A stretch of 64,000 nt of DNA from Solea solea. Taxonomy: Eukaryota > Chordata > Actinopteri > Pleuronectiformes > Soleidae. The notes below the pieces were generated by a model. The model worked only from the letters and a program-made list of their open reading frames with translations, ran no database searches and was not told the origin of the DNA. Positions 16,403 through 64,000 of this stretch are shown piece by piece. The position numbers and the translations under genes are program-made. The first letter of the stretch is position 1; each line of letters starts with the position of its first letter. The DNA lies in NCBI RefSeq assembly GCF_958295425.1, contig NC_081147.1:2439290-2503289 (forward strand), given 5' to 3'.

Positions 16403-17715
16403 ATATTGCCCAGGGTTTTATTGCACATTGCTTTATGGTTTTATTGTACGTTATTATGAGTTTTTGTTGTGGTTATTGCACATTTCGGTGGGTTGTGATC
16501 ATGGACAGTTGTTTGTTTTAGTTCGTACTGTGTTTTTGTTTGCCCTCCTCCCCCCCAGTGAGGAGTTGTACAGTTTGATGGCCCGGGGGAAACACGAGTC
16601 CCCCAGCCTGTTGGTCCTGTACTTTGGGAGGAGCAGCCTGTTGCTGAGGCTTCTGTGGCTCCTCTGGCTGCTGATGACAGTGTGCAGAGGGTGGTTGGCA
16701 TTGTCCAGGATGCTCAGTTTGTCAAGAGTTTTCCTCTCTGCCACTGTCACCAGAGGGTCCAGCCTCATTCCTACCACCGAGCCGGCCCGTCTGATGAGTT
16801 TTTCCAGTCTGTGGAAGTCTGCCTTAGTTGTGCCCCCGCCCCAGCACACCACAGCGTAAGAGAGAACACTGGCAACCACAGACTGGTAGAACATCCACAG
16901 GAGCTTCTTGCAGATGTTAAAAGATCGTAGCCTCCTCAGAAAGTACAACCGGCTCTGGGCCTTCTTGTACAGTTGCCTTGTGTTGCTTGTCCAGTCCAGC
17001 TTGTTGTCCAGCCACAGCCCAAGATATTTGTAGGTCTGCACGACCTCCACCTCCTCTGCTTCTATTAGAACTGGTCTCGAACTGGGTCTGTCCCTCCTGA
17101 AGTCGATGACCAGTTCCTTGGTCTTTGAGGTGTTGAGCTGCAAGTTATTAGTGTGGCACCAGACAACAAGGTTCCTCACCAGGCTCCTATATTCCTCTTC
17201 CTCTTCATTGTCTCGGATACACCCCATGACGGCCGTGTCATCTGCGGACTTCTGGATGTGACACGTTTCAGAGTTGTAGCAGAAGTCCGCAGTGTACAGA
17301 GTGAAGAGGATGGGAGACAGCACAGTCCCCTGAGGAGCTCCGATGTTGCTGACCACAGTGTCAGACGTGATGTCCTTCAGCCTGACATACTGTGGTCTGT
17401 CTGTGAGGTAGCTGGAAATCCAAGCAACCAGGCAGGGGTCCACTCGCATTCTGGTGAGTTTTTCTTTGGATACAAGGGGCCGGATGGTGTTGAAGGCACC
17501 CGAAAAGTCCAAAAAGAGGATCCTGACTGTGCCACTTCCCTTGTCCAGATGCGAGTGGGCTTGGTGTGGGAGGTATAGAATGGCAACCTCTGCCCGAGGT
17601 TGTAGGGTGTCCTCAGCGTGCTGTACCTGAGGCCTGAGGAGGTTGAGGAAGAGCCGCTCCAGAGTCTTCATCAGATGTGAAGTAAGTGCCACCGGTGCAA
17701 TGCAGAGTGGAATTA
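16403..17715 (-). mobile_element. 5'-truncated non-LTR retrotransposon (L2/CR1/Rex-like LINE)
   Basis: The minus frame 17692-16499 (397 codons) is the second half of a reverse transcriptase. It shows PVALTSHLMKTLERL, motif A LDFSGAFNTI, motif B GAPQGTVLSPILFTLYTAD, the catalytic Asp pair in SADDTAVMG, LQLNTSKTKELVIDFR, the thumb segment TYKYLGLWLDNKLDW, and a C-terminal SVLSYAVVCWGG region. Homology begins abruptly near 17710, so the endonuclease and N-terminal RT are missing, as is usual for LINE copies. The residue before the catalytic Asp pair is Ser where the family normally has Phe or Tyr. The 3' UTR runs to about 16403, with CAATGTGCAATAA-type repeats. Only recently inactive: the frame is intact over nearly 400 codons. 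Confidence 0.9.
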
Positions 17716-18091
17716 TGTGAAGTGTAGTTTTGTTGTCTTGTTTGGTTTCCTTTGGGTTTGAGTTTTGAGGAAAACAAACTCGTTAACTAGTAGCACCAAA
17801 TATTTCCTTCATTTTTTTAGGTATTTTATTGTGAAAGGGACAGTTGTGTTACCGCACCTAACAAAAAGAGAACACAATTCTAATATTTTATTGTTATTTT
17901 TTGTTTTTCAATTCAGCTTCACCTCTCTAGGGGTCGCCAGGAGGATTACACTGGATCTAGGATTACACTGCATGTGCAGTGTTAAATTAAGAACCAGTAC
18001 TGGGGATTTATTTGTGTATTTTATGTCAAATTAAATCAAGATTATATTTTATAGTCACATTTGGGAGGGATTTTAGAAAAAAAAGAACACA
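17716..18091. other. No gene recognised
   Basis: AT-rich sequence between the LINE and a small retroelement tail. Short frames only. Confidence 0.5.
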
Positions 18092-49289: not shown

Positions 49290-49880
49290 ATAAGCCAGCT
49301 TTGATTTATAAAGGGCCTTTCACAAAACCCACGGTAAAAAGTAGAAAAACGACAAATCAGAACAAAAAGACAAACCGGTGGAAAAAACCTTCAGGAACAA
49401 GTGTCGCTTCAACACTGATGTAAACGACTCCAGAGTTGGTGCCTGGTGAACAGCCGGAGGGAGCAGTGACACTGAAAGAGCTGTTGCCCAAAGTTTTGCC
49501 TGCAGGTGCTGGGGGATGGAGAGGAGACTGAGGTCAGCAGACTGCAGGTGCCGGGAGGGACTCCATGAGAGACGTGTAAGATGATCCAGGTGTTTCAGCG
49601 GGGGGGGGGGGGGTGATGTGTTGCCAAGGATGTGTTGGAGCCTATCCAGGGTTTTCTTGGGGACCCCAAACAGGACAGCGTTGCAGTAGTCCAGACGTGA
49701 TGTAATAACAGCAAGGATAAGGGTCTCAGCGACAGAATCAGGGAGTGACGGCCAGAGTCGGGAGATGTATTTTTGAGGAGGAAAAAGGTGGATTTGATGT
49801 GTGTGTCAAATGAGTGGAGTCCAGAACCTCCGTGGGCAGTGAAGTGGTGAAGTCATCGACTGAGAGGACCAGGTCTAGTA
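49290..49880 (-). mobile_element. LINE 3' fragment (L2/CR1-like), minus strand
   Basis: The minus strand encodes ETLILAVITSRLDYCNAVLF then GVPKKTLDRLQHILGN (about 49720-49610), and, after frame breaks and a long G run at 49599-49612, LESFTSVLKRHLFLK (about 49435-49390). It then has a 3' UTR ending GGCCCTTTATAAATCAAAGC. These are the conserved C-terminal blocks of fish LINE ORF2. Most of the element is lost. Confidence 0.8.
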
Positions 49881-56399: not shown

Positions 56400-56930
56400 T
56401 ACTTTTGATAGGGCTTCAGCAATCGTTTCATCCATAAAATGTCAGAAAATGTTGATAATTCTTCCTCAAACTTTGTTATAATGATGTTCTCAAACCAAAA
56501 ATGACTCAGTTTGAATGATTTATTTCTTCTACGGAGCAAAGAAACTAGAAAATATTCACATTTTAGAAGCTGAAAAATGACAGAAAGTAGAAAATATTCA
56601 CATTTTAGAAGCTGAAAAATGACAGAAAGTAGAAAATATTCACATTTTAGAAGCTGAAAAATGACAGAAAGTAGAAAATATTCACATTTAAGAAGCTGAA
56701 AAATGACAGAAACTAGAAAATATTCACATTTAAGAAGCTGAAAAATGACAGAAAGTAGAAAATATTCACATTTTAGAAGCTGAAAAATGACAGAAAGTAG
56801 AAAATATTCACATTTAAGAAGCTGAAAAATGACAAAGTAGAAAATATTCACATTTAAAAAGCTGAAAAATAACAGAAAGTAGAAAATATTCACATTTAAG
56901 AAGCTTTACATTAAACTGCACCCAGATTAA
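56400..56930. repeat. GGGCTGCAACTA-type element with internal 42-base minisatellite
   Basis: The element starts near GGGCTTCAGCAATCGTTTCA (56410) and has the family's interior TCAGAAAATGTTGATAATTC and GGAGCAAAGAAACTAGAAAA. The block AGAAAATATTCACATTTTAG plus 22 further bases is then repeated at 56547, 56589, 56631, 56673, 56715, 56757, 56799, 56839 and 56881; one unit is 2 bases short. The 183-codon minus frame here encodes a 14-residue hydrophobic repeat and is not a gene. Confidence 0.9.
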
Positions 56931-60552: not shown

Positions 60553-60700
60553 ATGACGACTTTCAGGGTTTTTTCGAGCACAACACTCGCCGTGCTGCTG
60601 CTACTGCTGCTGCTCGACGTGTGCCTGGTGTGCTGTGACATTACGGACGGGAACGCGGAGCACCTGAAGCGGGAGCACTCGCTGATGAAGCCGTACCAAG
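60553..60700 (+). CDS. lman2: lman2 exon 1: signal peptide and mature N terminus
   Basis: Start ATG at 60553 (context CAAAAATGACG) begins a 49-codon segment. A run of eight leucines (residues 12-21 region) forms the signal-peptide core; cleavage is probably near Cys27-Cys28, before DITDGN. The exon ends KPYQ plus one base at the donor CAAG|GTGAGTT, so the split codon is the Gly of GVGSS. The CTGCTGCTGCT stretch encoding the leucines is naturally repetitive. Confidence 0.93.
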
Positions 60701-63700
60701 GTGAGTTGAACACAGTTAGCTCCTCGGCTAACGGCTAACATGGTGTTTATTTCCTTACTTTCTTTGCTGTTATTAACTTATTTAGCAAAAAAGAACACGA
60801 AGAGTAATAACGTTAAATTGTACTATAACTATGTGTTATCGTAGTTCACACTTGAGTGTCATTTAAGCGCCTTTTCTAAGCTTTTTTCCGCTAGTGAAAG
60901 TGAATTGCAAATGGATGAAGTTATTTTTAAGTAGACATTTTAATGCAGTTGATTTACATTATCAATAAATTAATTCGCTGTATTAACAAACTTAACAAGA
61001 TATGACAAATGTGCAGCATAGGGTTAGATTAGAACCAAAAAAAGTGGATTAAATGTATGTACTGTGTAGAAAAAGTAATGGGACTGGATAAGCCTGAATG
61101 TGACTTATATAAAGAATGTTTATGTCATAATTCAGACAGGTCAGGTTTTTTGTAACATCTTTCTAATTCCTGCTACTTTTTTTGTTCATTCATTGATGGC
61201 GAGCAGTTTTGAAGTGTTGCTTAACTTGTGTTAAGGCTCCTAACAGCAAAGGCTGCGCATTTAAAGCTGTAAAAGTAAGAATATTTCAACATCGATGGCA
61301 ACAATCATTATTAGGATCTGATTTAGGACATAATGTAAAATCTGTTGCCAATAATAGGACCTGAATCCCATGTAGTCGTTTTCATCATGAAAAGGACAAT
61401 TTGGTTATTTATGTTGTTTCAGATTCTCAAATTCTTTAATACTTTTTTCTACAATATCTGTATTTTTTTAACTTAATATATATATATATATATTCCTTAA
61501 ACAATGAAAATCCCAAAACATAAACGAAAAGTTGGAGAAAGTAGAATAATCTTACATTATATGCCCCTTTTTAACAAGACATTCATTAACAAAATATGGT
61601 ACAGTAAAAAAATAAATAAAGCTGACACAGGCTATTATGTCCAACTGTTTCTCAGACACTAAAACGACATATTTCCTTATTAAATGAATAACCGGACAAA
61701 GTGGCTCTCACAGTGTCGAGAGCAGTGACCTGCAGCCTTTGTGTGTGTAGGTTCGACACCACGCCCTGACTGTGAATAAGAACATATGTGTCAGTAAAAC
61801 AGGAGGCAGGAGGCCCCTCAGACCATGAAAGTGTTTGTTTAAGGCGTGTGAAGCTTCACTTGCCTCCCTTTGTTACTGCACGGAGAAATGCAACCCTCAG
61901 TCTGTGTAAATAAGAAGAAATAAAACATGTTTTTTTATGACTTCATGTTTTATTACAGGCACTGCTTGACTGCTTTTTCACTGTGAAGCAGATTTACAAA
62001 TGTATTGTGTGTTTGTTGTGTTGTGCAGGCGTCGGCAGCAGCGCCAGCAGTCAGTGGGACTTCTGGGGAAGCACGTTGGTGACGTCCTCGTACGTCCGAC
62101 TCACCCCGGACGAGAGGAGCAAACAGGGATCCATCTGGAACACAATGGTGAGGAAGAACTGGCAAACGGTGGTGAATATCTCCTGTACTGTGTGGTCACA
62201 TTTAAAACCTGCGTCCTGTTTCTGCAGCCTTGTTACCTGAAGGACTGGGAGATGCACGTGCAGTTTAAAGTTCATGGGTCGGGGAAAAAGAATCTCCACG
62301 GCGATGGCATCGCCCTCTGGTACACGAAGGAAAAACTGCACCCAGGTGAAGACGACTGATTCTTTTAATATTCTGTGAAAGAAGGGTTTATTTTTTCTTC
62401 ATTAATCCATTAGTTGTTCTGGCAATAAAATCTCAGAAAATATTGTTTACCCTAACCTGAAAACCTCAAATATCTCGTATCATTCAGTTTACTCTCACAG
62501 AGAAGCAAAAAGGCACAACCCTAACCCTTACCCAGACCATATTCACTTTTAAGAAGCTGATATTAATATAATATCTCTGAAATTATTTAATTTATTACCT
62601 TAAATAGTTGACAAATCACTTACTAGTCACTTACTTTTCAATTTCTTTACTTTTAAGTTTCCATAAATCAAAAAATGCAACAATGAATTGTCGTCTGCTG
62701 CTGCTCCTCCTCTCACCACCAGTATTTTATTCTGAAACATAAGGCCTGACTTCCTGTTAGTGTTTCACAATAAAGGCTGACACTACACACGTTATATTGA
62801 ACATTAAAATCATAAAGGAAGGGAAGTGTTTTAATTAATATAGAACAGACTGCAATTCTCTCAGCCTTCATATATTAGTCAGTGCTCCAGATCATGAAGG
62901 GCAGCACCAGTAAAGGTAAGACTGTTGTCCAGACATGTACATTCGTCCCCCTGTCCTTCAGAGAGATACTTAATATGAAAGCACGCTCCATCAGGACGCT
63001 TTCTCCATCCTGTGAGATCGTTGTCATGCCTGTCGTCTTCATCAGTGCTGACCACAGAGCGGTCGGTGTGTGTGTGTGAGACAGGCCTGCTCATGTCTCA
63101 CCTCATCCCTGTCCCTGTCCGTCCTCAGGCTCCGTGTTTGGAAACCAAGATCCGTTTCTTGGCCTGGCTATTTTTTTGGATACCTTCCGCAATGACCTCC
63201 ATGGGATGGATGTAAGTGTGCAGTGTGTGTGTGGCTCCCGCGTGGTCGATTGACCCCGCCCTGTTTTGTTTTGCAGGGCCCGTGTTTTCCAACAATGCTC
63301 ACTTCCACGGGCTGGCCGTGTTTATAGATACTTACTCTAACGACGATACGTCGGACGTGAGTCGCTGCTCAGGTTTTATTTTACCTGTCGGCATCGTGTC
63401 AGTGGACAGTTTCGTGTCTTTGCTTTCTGCCGGCATGTTGTCTGACCCTTTGACCCCTGAAGCACGGCAACAAGACTTTCACACTGCAGCTGAAATTAAA
63501 TAATAAACCTTTTATTTTAGTGTTTTTCCTGCATTTTGAAAAGTAAAAATCAATCGCTCTGGGTCAATAAATTGGGAAAACCTTTACTCATCTATTGTTT
63601 TGAATATTTCATAACATTCTCCCTTTTTTTCTGTAATTTGAGTCGTCGTAAACTAATATTTCAGCCGGAATATTAGACATGAACCTCATTTTAAAATCGC

Positions 63701-64000
63701 TGCCATGTGAAGGAGGCTTTTGCGTACTAAGCATGAGATGTGGGCCTTGTTCATTATTTTTTATTTCACATATTCATTTGTCCGTCATCTTTCATGTGTT
63801 CATCGCGTGCTTGTCGTGACTTAGCCGCCGCTTCTCTGTCTCCAGCGCTCCTTCCCGTACATTTCCGCCATGGTGAACAACGGCACGGTGAGCTACGACC
63901 ACAGCAAAGACGGCCGCCTGTCGGAGCTGGGAGGCTGCTCGGCCGAGATCAGGAACCGGGAGCACGACACGTACCTCGCCGTCCGCTACTCCAAAGGAAG
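60553..64000 (+). CDS. lman2: lman2 (VIP36) L-type lectin, 5' part, exons 1-5, runs off the window
   Basis: Type I membrane lectin that binds high-mannose N-glycans in a calcium-dependent way and cycles between ER, ERGIC and cis-Golgi during glycoprotein transport and quality control. Joined exons give a leucine-rich signal peptide (about residues 1-28), a mature start DITDGNAEHLKREHSL and most of the L-type lectin beta-sandwich. Sugar and metal residues fall where the family predicts: Asp115 in HGDGIALWYT, Asp146 and Asn150 in the exon-4 segment, His174 and Asp177 in SYDHSKD (human VIP36 Asp131, Asp162, Asn166, His190, Asp193). Asn167 in NNGT is the conserved N-glycosylation sequon. The mature start DITDGN and RLTPDERSKQGSIWN favour LMAN2 over LMAN2L. 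The membrane segment and cytoplasmic tail lie beyond the edge. Two alternative fourth exons are present. Family identification is near certain; LMAN2 versus a fish paralogue is slightly less so. Confidence 0.95.
60701..62028 (+). other. lman2: lman2 intron 1
   Basis: AT-rich intron of 1328 bases. The stretch 61690-61790 contains a tRNA-like box B (GGTTCGACACC at 61751) and a CAGTGTCGAGAGCAGTG block resembling a decayed SINE head. A short TA run sits at about 61477-61494. Nothing else is recognised. Confidence 0.6.
62029..62147 (+). CDS. lman2: lman2 exon 2: start of the lectin domain
   Basis: The acceptor TTGTGCAG|GC follows a 1328-base intron. The exon is 119 bases and encodes GVGSSASSQWDFWGST through SKQGSIWNTM, ending in phase 0 at ATG|GTGAGG. 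It matches the beginning of the VIP36 carbohydrate-recognition domain. Reading on past the donor gives a longer open frame that is an intron artefact. Confidence 0.93.
62228..62345 (+). CDS. lman2: lman2 exon 3: HGDG sugar-binding strand
   Basis: Separated from exon 2 by an 80-base intron ending TTTCTGCAG. The exon is 118 bases and encodes PCYLKDWEMHVQFKVHG through KEKLHP, ending after one base of a Gly codon (phase 1). KKNLHGDGIALWYT carries Asp115, the equivalent of the mannose-contacting Asp131 of human VIP36. This phase-1 donor is what makes the two downstream fourth exons alternatives. Confidence 0.94.
62346..63128 (+). other. lman2: lman2 intron 3, with MITE remnant
   Basis: This 783-base intron precedes the alternative exon pair. 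62385-62660 resembles a decayed copy of the GGGCTGCAACTA element seen elsewhere in this window: AAATCTCAGAAAATATTG, a GAGAAGCAAAAAGG block and ATTCACTTTTAAGAAGCTG line up with the copies at 7.8 and 56.5 kb. The part before exon 4a is pyrimidine-rich. Confidence 0.5.
63129..63211 (+). CDS. lman2: lman2 alternative exon 4a (mutually exclusive candidate)
   Basis: The exon is 83 bases between a strong pyrimidine-rich acceptor (CCCTGTCCGTCCTCAG) and donor GAT|GTAAGTG. It enters in phase 1 and leaves in phase 0, exactly like exon 4b. It encodes the split Gly, then SVFGNQDPFLGLAIFLDTF and RNDLHGMD. The metal-site Asp146 and Asn150 are kept, while the loop after them is one residue longer than in 4b and different in charge. 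It is about 50 percent identical in protein to 4b, so the two arose by an exon duplication that is not recent. No stop or damaged splice site suggests it is dead. Confidence 0.85.
63277..63356 (+). CDS. lman2: lman2 alternative exon 4b (canonical-like)
   Basis: The exon is 80 bases, with acceptor TGTTTTGTTTTGCAG and donor GAC|GTGAGTC. It encodes the split Gly, then PVFSNNAHFHGLAVFIDTY and SNDDTSD. The GPVF start and FHGLA followed by an acidic DTYxND segment resemble human LMAN2 more closely than 4a does, so 4b is the likelier ancestral form. Asp146 and Asn150 of the calcium/mannose site are present. If 4b is spliced after 4a it is read one base out and meets TAG at 63325-63327. Confidence 0.9.
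63846..64000 (+). CDS. lman2: lman2 exon 5, partial at the window edge
   Basis: The acceptor CTCTGTCTCCAG opens a phase-0 exon encoding RSFPYISAMVNNGTVSYDH and on to EHDTYLAVRYSKG, cut by the window end. It contains the NNGT glycosylation sequon, His174 and Asp177 of the sugar/metal site, and Cys186 (human Cys202, half of the conserved disulfide). It joins in frame to either 4a or 4b. The exon is GC-rich compared with the surrounding introns. Confidence 0.93.

Follow-up and report, generated by a model that had tools for sequence, protein, structure and literature searches.

A tandem, probably mutually exclusive pair of homologous exons encodes two versions of the calcium/mannose loop of LMAN2 (VIP36) in ray-finned fishes

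Introduction

The exclusive use of exons in alpha-tropomyosin, a muscle protein that, unlike LMAN2, is without a lectin or sugar site, was reportedly traced by Smith and Nadal-Ginard in 1989 to a branch point close to the upstream donor, which is the arrangement that we propose here for LMAN2. In OGDH, exclusive exon use accompanies branch points at a distance from the donor of 25-41 nt in human and 46 nt in sunfish, and a steric limit of ~50 nt from donor to branch point has been proposed (PMC7969005, in excerpt).

The lectins ERGIC-53 and VIP36 have been compared through their structures. In the excerpts of that work used here, loops 1 and 2 of ERGIC-53 are Ca2+-binding and, when Ca2+ is absent, disordered, and position 164 (VIP36 numbering) contacts the sugar in the structures of both proteins (PMC3912170). 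Tyr164 of VIP36, for which ERGIC-53 has Phe154, forms a hydrogen bond with Man(4) and favors a single, predominant binding mode; Tyr164 and Asp261 are the two residues explaining the higher affinity of VIP36, and the main determinant of specificity within this group of lectins is Gly252/Asp261 (PMC3912170, same excerpts).

Here we analyze a 64,000-nucleotide stretch of DNA from Solea solea (NC_081147.1, positions 2,439,290 to 2,503,289; hereafter the window) that holds two adjacent versions of lman2 exon 4. In the reading that we favor, and consider quite probable, these form a mutually exclusive tandem pair giving rise to two forms of VIP36, one Tyr-type, the other Phe-type and partly like ERGIC-53, where we infer both the exclusive use and the effect on sugar binding.

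Results

The 5' part of lman2 (VIP36) lies on the plus strand in the final 3.5 kb of the window. Coding exon 1 (60553..60700, from the ATG), exon 2 (62029..62147), exon 3 (62228..62345, exit phase 1), either form of exon 4 and exon 5 (63846..64000, entry phase 0) join into an open frame, and exon 5 runs off the window end. Exon 4a (63129..63211, 83 nt) carries a Phe-type Ca2+/mannose loop 1 and encodes (G)SVFGNQDPFLGLAIFLDTFRNDLHGMD; exon 4b (63277..63356, 80 nt) carries a Tyr-type loop 1 and encodes (G)PVFSNNAHFHGLAVFIDTYSNDDTSD; between them lies an intron of 65 nt (63212..63276). The joined peptide matched Pfam PF03388 over residues 37-206 (3.5e-64 with 4a, 1.4e-65 with 4b), and VIP36 (2duo) was the best solved structure for the 4a isoform, the only isoform compared (2.2e-89, versus 1.8e-26 for ERGIC-53). 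Because of this domain match and closest solved relative, the gene is identified by sequence as LMAN2/VIP36, with a legume-like lectin domain nearest that of VIP36. A membrane anchor and C-terminal tail are present in LMAN2 relatives; the window stops in exon 5. Elsewhere, the window contains a tandem array of a 42-bp unit (56540-56905; 8.8 copies, 96% matches) and, on the minus strand, ORFs of 427 aa (16499-17782) and 161 aa (49320-49805) that by eye resemble a non-LTR retrotransposon reverse transcriptase.

A first-pass annotation of this DNA had described both fourth exons, and its coordinates, lengths (83 and 80 nt), phases (entry in phase 1 and exit in phase 0 for both) and 65-nt gap proved right. 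The acceptors are proper, as it had noted, and both exons have AG/GT splice sites, with donors GAT/GTAAGT for 4a and GAC/GTGAGT for 4b. Its figure of about 50 percent protein identity likewise holds (14/27 aligned residues, 52%), and 50/80 aligned bases are identical at the DNA level. The alignment of the two peptides scored 61, whereas the best of 5000 shuffles of 4b reached 23. When the first 23 residues of 4a were scanned, ungapped, in six frames against 31,436 stop-free 27-residue stretches of the window, 4b ranked top after 4a itself with a score of 70, and the next stretch, an unrelated one, scored 21. 4a and 4b are adjacent homologous exons.

With 4a alone or 4b alone, the frame is open to the window end, giving 207 and 206 residues, respectively. 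Joining 4a to 4b shifts the frame and introduces stops, the first of them within 4b, and skipping both also shifts the frame, with no stop before the window end. Retention of the 65-nt intron shifts the frame too, since 83+65+80 is a multiple of 3 and exon 5 is therefore entered in phase 1. The intron contains a sole yUnAy match (TTGAC), whose A is nucleotide 42 of the intron (window 63253). This putative branch point, a consensus match only, is separated by 42 nt from the 4a donor and by 23 nt from the 4b acceptor that follows. In the accessible part of a study of short introns, 65 nt is the lower threshold of the main short human intron population, and human introns of 37-65 nt were shown to be spliced (PMC4463651); 65 nt is therefore no absolute bar, and length alone is not decisive. 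Folding of the 65-nt intron did not go beyond that of shuffled sequences (z -0.91; 36/200 shuffles fold equally well), so no RNA structure is claimed. Upstream of the 4a acceptor, three motifs matching both YCAY, presumably a NOVA-type motif, and yUnAy fall within 16 nt (63091-63106) and could be branch points or a regulator site; the regulator reading was dropped because each YCAY site is also a branch-point match. By eye, the stretch before the 4a acceptor seems similar in read-through ORFs of other fishes. The barrier to joint inclusion of 4a and 4b consists of the frame shift with its stop and the predicted branch point, whose steric effect we infer.

Either form of exon 4 covers Ca2+/mannose loop 1 and spans what we take to be residues 145-171 in VIP36 numbering, anchored on Tyr164. 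The window 4a reads DTF, aligned with DSF of ERGIC-53, so that Phe stands where VIP36 has Tyr164. Among relatives, Phe164 and Arg165 occur in 31/31 4a exons and Tyr164 in 29/29 compared fish 4b-type exons, counts that for Phe and Tyr are partly by construction, since the two sets were chosen with strings containing one or the other. An independent check of 142 motif matches in 138 records found the sole other Phe in P0135, a distant protein reading FSNT. Three further fish 4b-type exons (P0001, P0122 and P0024), which escaped the pattern owing to a changed exon start, also read DTY. Residue 165 is Ser, Pro or His in the 4b-type set, and Asp162, Thr163, Asn166 and Asp167 are identical in both sets. 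The loop end of 4a is longer by one residue (LHGMD), with Gly170 in 31/31 and Met171 in 30/31 4a exons. Asp261 is encoded in an exon common to both isoforms, beyond the window, and is left untouched by the 4a/4b swap; its T-G-D-L motif was present in 17/23 named 4a-bearing models (no pattern match in the other 6), and the 4a isoform would therefore be at most half ERGIC-53-like. The 4a form shares one ERGIC-53-type feature, the Phe, and is not classed as ERGIC-53-type, as the relatives that match the pattern keep Asp261 instead of Gly. AlphaFold2 models, each from a 26-row alignment, were unusable (mean pLDDT 40.9 for the 4a protein P0002 and 40.2 for the 4b protein P0013).

With the 4a isoform as protein query, 422 matches came up, of which the best 120 were taken; restricting the search to the region of 4a yielded 30 matches (31 candidates), and restricting it to that of 4b 22 matches (25 candidates). 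This search of relatives, which the first-pass annotation had suggested as a check, found 4a in 31/138 fetched protein records. Absence of 4a from every related species, which would have told against the pair, is not what we observed: 23 models of named ray-finned fishes carry it. LMAN2 rows were sorted by their displayed names, with LMAN2L, lamprey, invertebrate and nameless fish-like rows excluded. The 47 named ray-finned fish LMAN2 models comprise 19 with 4a only, 20 with a 4b-type exon only, four with both and four with neither; 23/47 is not a frequency, since two of the searches were queried with 4a, and because the database is clustered at 90% identity, species seen with one form may carry the other too. 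Among 39 other jawed-vertebrate LMAN2 rows (34 with an organism name, one, P0036, with a code, and four without), none had 4a, 37 had a Tyr-type exon and two had none, though a tetrapod cluster of the 90%-identity database could conceivably conceal a 4a. The holostean Amia carries 4a (P0011), which would place the exon before the teleosts unless it arose twice, and the Polypterus model (P0028, labelled X2) has a 4b-type exon only. Four fish lman2 models (P0029, P0030, P0076 and P0097) have odd residues in place of either exon-4 form; such models suggest that automatic annotation struggles with the pair. No relative turned up when viral contigs were scanned with P0124.

The order 4a then 4b was seen in 10/138 fetched records, namely models of Menidia, Danionella, Brachyistius and Caranx and six apparent genomic read-through ORFs. 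Intron lengths of other fishes were inferred from these proteins rather than from DNA. A spacer of 17 codons in the six read-through ORFs implies an intron of 52 nt, a biased sample, since both exons share one ORF only if intron length permits; the implied intron is 55 nt in Brachyistius and 34 nt in Danionella if contiguous. Menidia and Caranx have a one-residue spacer, the exons being joined in the predictor's own way, and are uninformative on the intron. In ORFs P0137 and P0138, 4a was read by eye ahead of 4b in a different reading frame. The Brachyistius model P0121 (X1) reads through its 55-nt intron and keeps 4a and 4b in one frame; exclusivity may therefore be less than strict wherever the length of the intron preserves the frame. 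As judged from these sequences, the tandem pair is conserved in related ray-finned fishes. Taken with this conserved order, the frame, intron length and branch-point distance in the window argue for the mutual exclusivity that the first-pass annotation had proposed.

Gene models offer hints on isoform use. Both X-labelled rows with 4a only are X1 (Tachysurus and Pseudochaenichthys; P0003 and P0005), and nine fish 4b-type rows are labelled X2. Periophthalmus (P0127, P0136) and Coryphaenoides (P0006, P0067) each have one 4a and one 4b model, those of Coryphaenoides being located on different contigs. RefSeq isoforms are usually supported by RNA-seq. Evidently, 4a and 4b isoforms are already in public annotation.

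In the loop half of the exon, mean identity was 90.2% for 4a (9 proteins) versus 72.4% for the 4b-type (10 proteins), and over the whole exon it was 82.7% versus 72.7% (9 and 10 proteins). Exons 2-3 averaged 87.5% in the 4a proteins and 87.1% in the 4b-type proteins; within the same 9 proteins, 4a as a whole is thus conserved no better than exons 2-3, and only its loop half is. The single tetrapod exon is 4b-like, in line with the remark in the first-pass annotation that the human exon resembles 4b: against 7 non-ray-finned exons, the 4b-type (n=10) reached 69.0% and 4a (n=9) 58.8%. In a tree built from 40 exon peptides (28 columns), 4a grouped next to two lamprey exons, though weakly supported (92/61), and 21/37 inner branches stayed open; the AU test did not reject a joint 4a+4b clade (p 0.285). 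At this resolution, the tree neither dates the duplication nor decides between a gain of 4a in ray-finned fishes and its loss elsewhere. The lamprey VIP36-like exons of P0068 (Lampetra) and P0080 (Petromyzon), both labelled X1, have the same length as 4a; P0068 has Arg165 like 4a, but Tyr164.

Discussion

The above analyses suggest that ray-finned fishes probably make two versions of LMAN2 that grip sugars differently. Under the proposed mechanism, the 4a donor could hardly be joined to the 4b acceptor, as splicing complexes would clash at 42 nt, so that each message would carry one exon; a message including both exons would be frameshifted and contain a stop, and the frame would serve as a second safeguard. 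The 4b protein would have the normal VIP36 pocket with Tyr at 164, and the 4a protein would have Phe there as in ERGIC-53, together with Arg165 and a loop end longer by one residue. This should result in weaker or looser binding of the D1 mannose arm, or in a different release of Ca2+ and cargo, and Asp261 would still limit glucosylated glycans in the 4a protein. More tentatively, and here our doubt outweighs our confidence, the splice switch, controlled by tissue or stress, may let a single cargo receptor alternate between a glycan pocket of the VIP36 type and one partly of the ERGIC-53 type, a job done by separate genes in other vertebrates.

The resemblance of 4a and 4b could be a product of chance or of the assembly, and one assembly only stands behind this window. 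This is hardly conceivable in view of the shuffle and six-frame controls and the identical 4a-4b tandem order in 10/138 records; a pseudo-exon was likewise judged unlikely, given these controls, the tandem order and the 4a exons of relatives. One of the two exons could still be a relic that is never used in this species. The window 4a has Ser146 and Pro153, each shared with 1/31 other 4a exons; however, both exons have intact splice sites and frame, and the window loop DTFRNDLHGMD exactly matches that of 24/31 other 4a exons, and we give this reading a very small chance. A chance barely larger goes to the second exon being mainly a regulatory device, in which double inclusion or skipping would yield a frameshifted, destroyed message and thereby tune the LMAN2 level. 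Inclusion of both exons does put a stop in 4b, and skipping does shift the frame, but a pure decoy need not preserve protein, whereas of the two copies 4a has the more strongly conserved loop half, and intact 4a-only models make up 19/47 of the named ray-finned models.

Alternatively, the pair could be exclusive and the swap, acting through Arg165 and LHGMD, could bear not on glycan choice but on how tightly Ca2+ is held, on release in response to pH, on a protein partner or on the stability of the domain. Arg165, Gly170 (31/31) and Met171 (30/31) are as constant in 4a as Phe164, and the accessible text of the structural work names Gly252/Asp261, not position 164, as the specificity determinant (PMC3912170). 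Against this, position 164 touches the sugar and is one of the two key affinity residues in the same source, and we regard a non-glycan role as unlikely, if less so than the readings above. If the preferred reading of two sugar-gripping versions is true, a conserved splice switch sits exactly on the Ca2+/sugar-binding loop of a glycoprotein cargo receptor, and the swapped residue is one already known from crystal structures to distinguish two receptors. The pair would then offer a natural system in which to ask how glycan affinity and cargo release depend on loop 1. 4a is a ray-finned fish exon, in none of the tetrapod rows, and gene models handle the pair badly.

Mutually exclusive tandem exons are a known kind of arrangement; this pair and its position on a sugar loop are undescribed in the openly accessible main texts and abstracts searched. 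The one paper matching LMAN2 together with mutually exclusive exons deals, in its accessible part, with how LMAN2 is expressed in pig rather than with these exons, and LMAN2 is absent from the main text, as far as available, of a survey of human tandem duplicated exon substitutions (PMC9741552). The 236 human events of that survey likewise involve homologous neighbors, used singly as we propose for the LMAN2 pair, and the fine-tuning of one protein region; 4a, by contrast, is in no tetrapod row. Close in arrangement are exons 4a and 4b of OGDH, likewise in tandem, with a short intron, a branch point less than ~50 nt from the upstream donor, conservation in fish and a protein region that handles Ca2+ (PMC7969005, in excerpt). 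OGDH is a different gene and protein, its branch points were mapped by experiment whereas that of LMAN2 is a consensus match only, and the LMAN2 pair, unlike that of OGDH, was found in ray-finned fishes only. The sister gene LMAN2L (VIPL) has isoforms with and without an 11-residue insert that vary at the same protein point, just after the loop-1 exon, by insertion rather than a swap and with Tyr kept. Both insert forms were seen in the LMAN2L of Hemitrygon (P0112, P0095), and forms with and without the insert extend from rays to mammals (P0112, P0095, P0102, P0094, P0089); this junction is therefore a site of splice variation in the sister gene. The pockets of ERGIC-53 (LMAN1) and VIP36 differ by Phe/Tyr at the very position that separates 4a from 4b; there, two genes are involved and Asp261/Gly252 is also changed (PMC3912170, in excerpt), whereas the LMAN2 pair lies within one gene and keeps Asp261.
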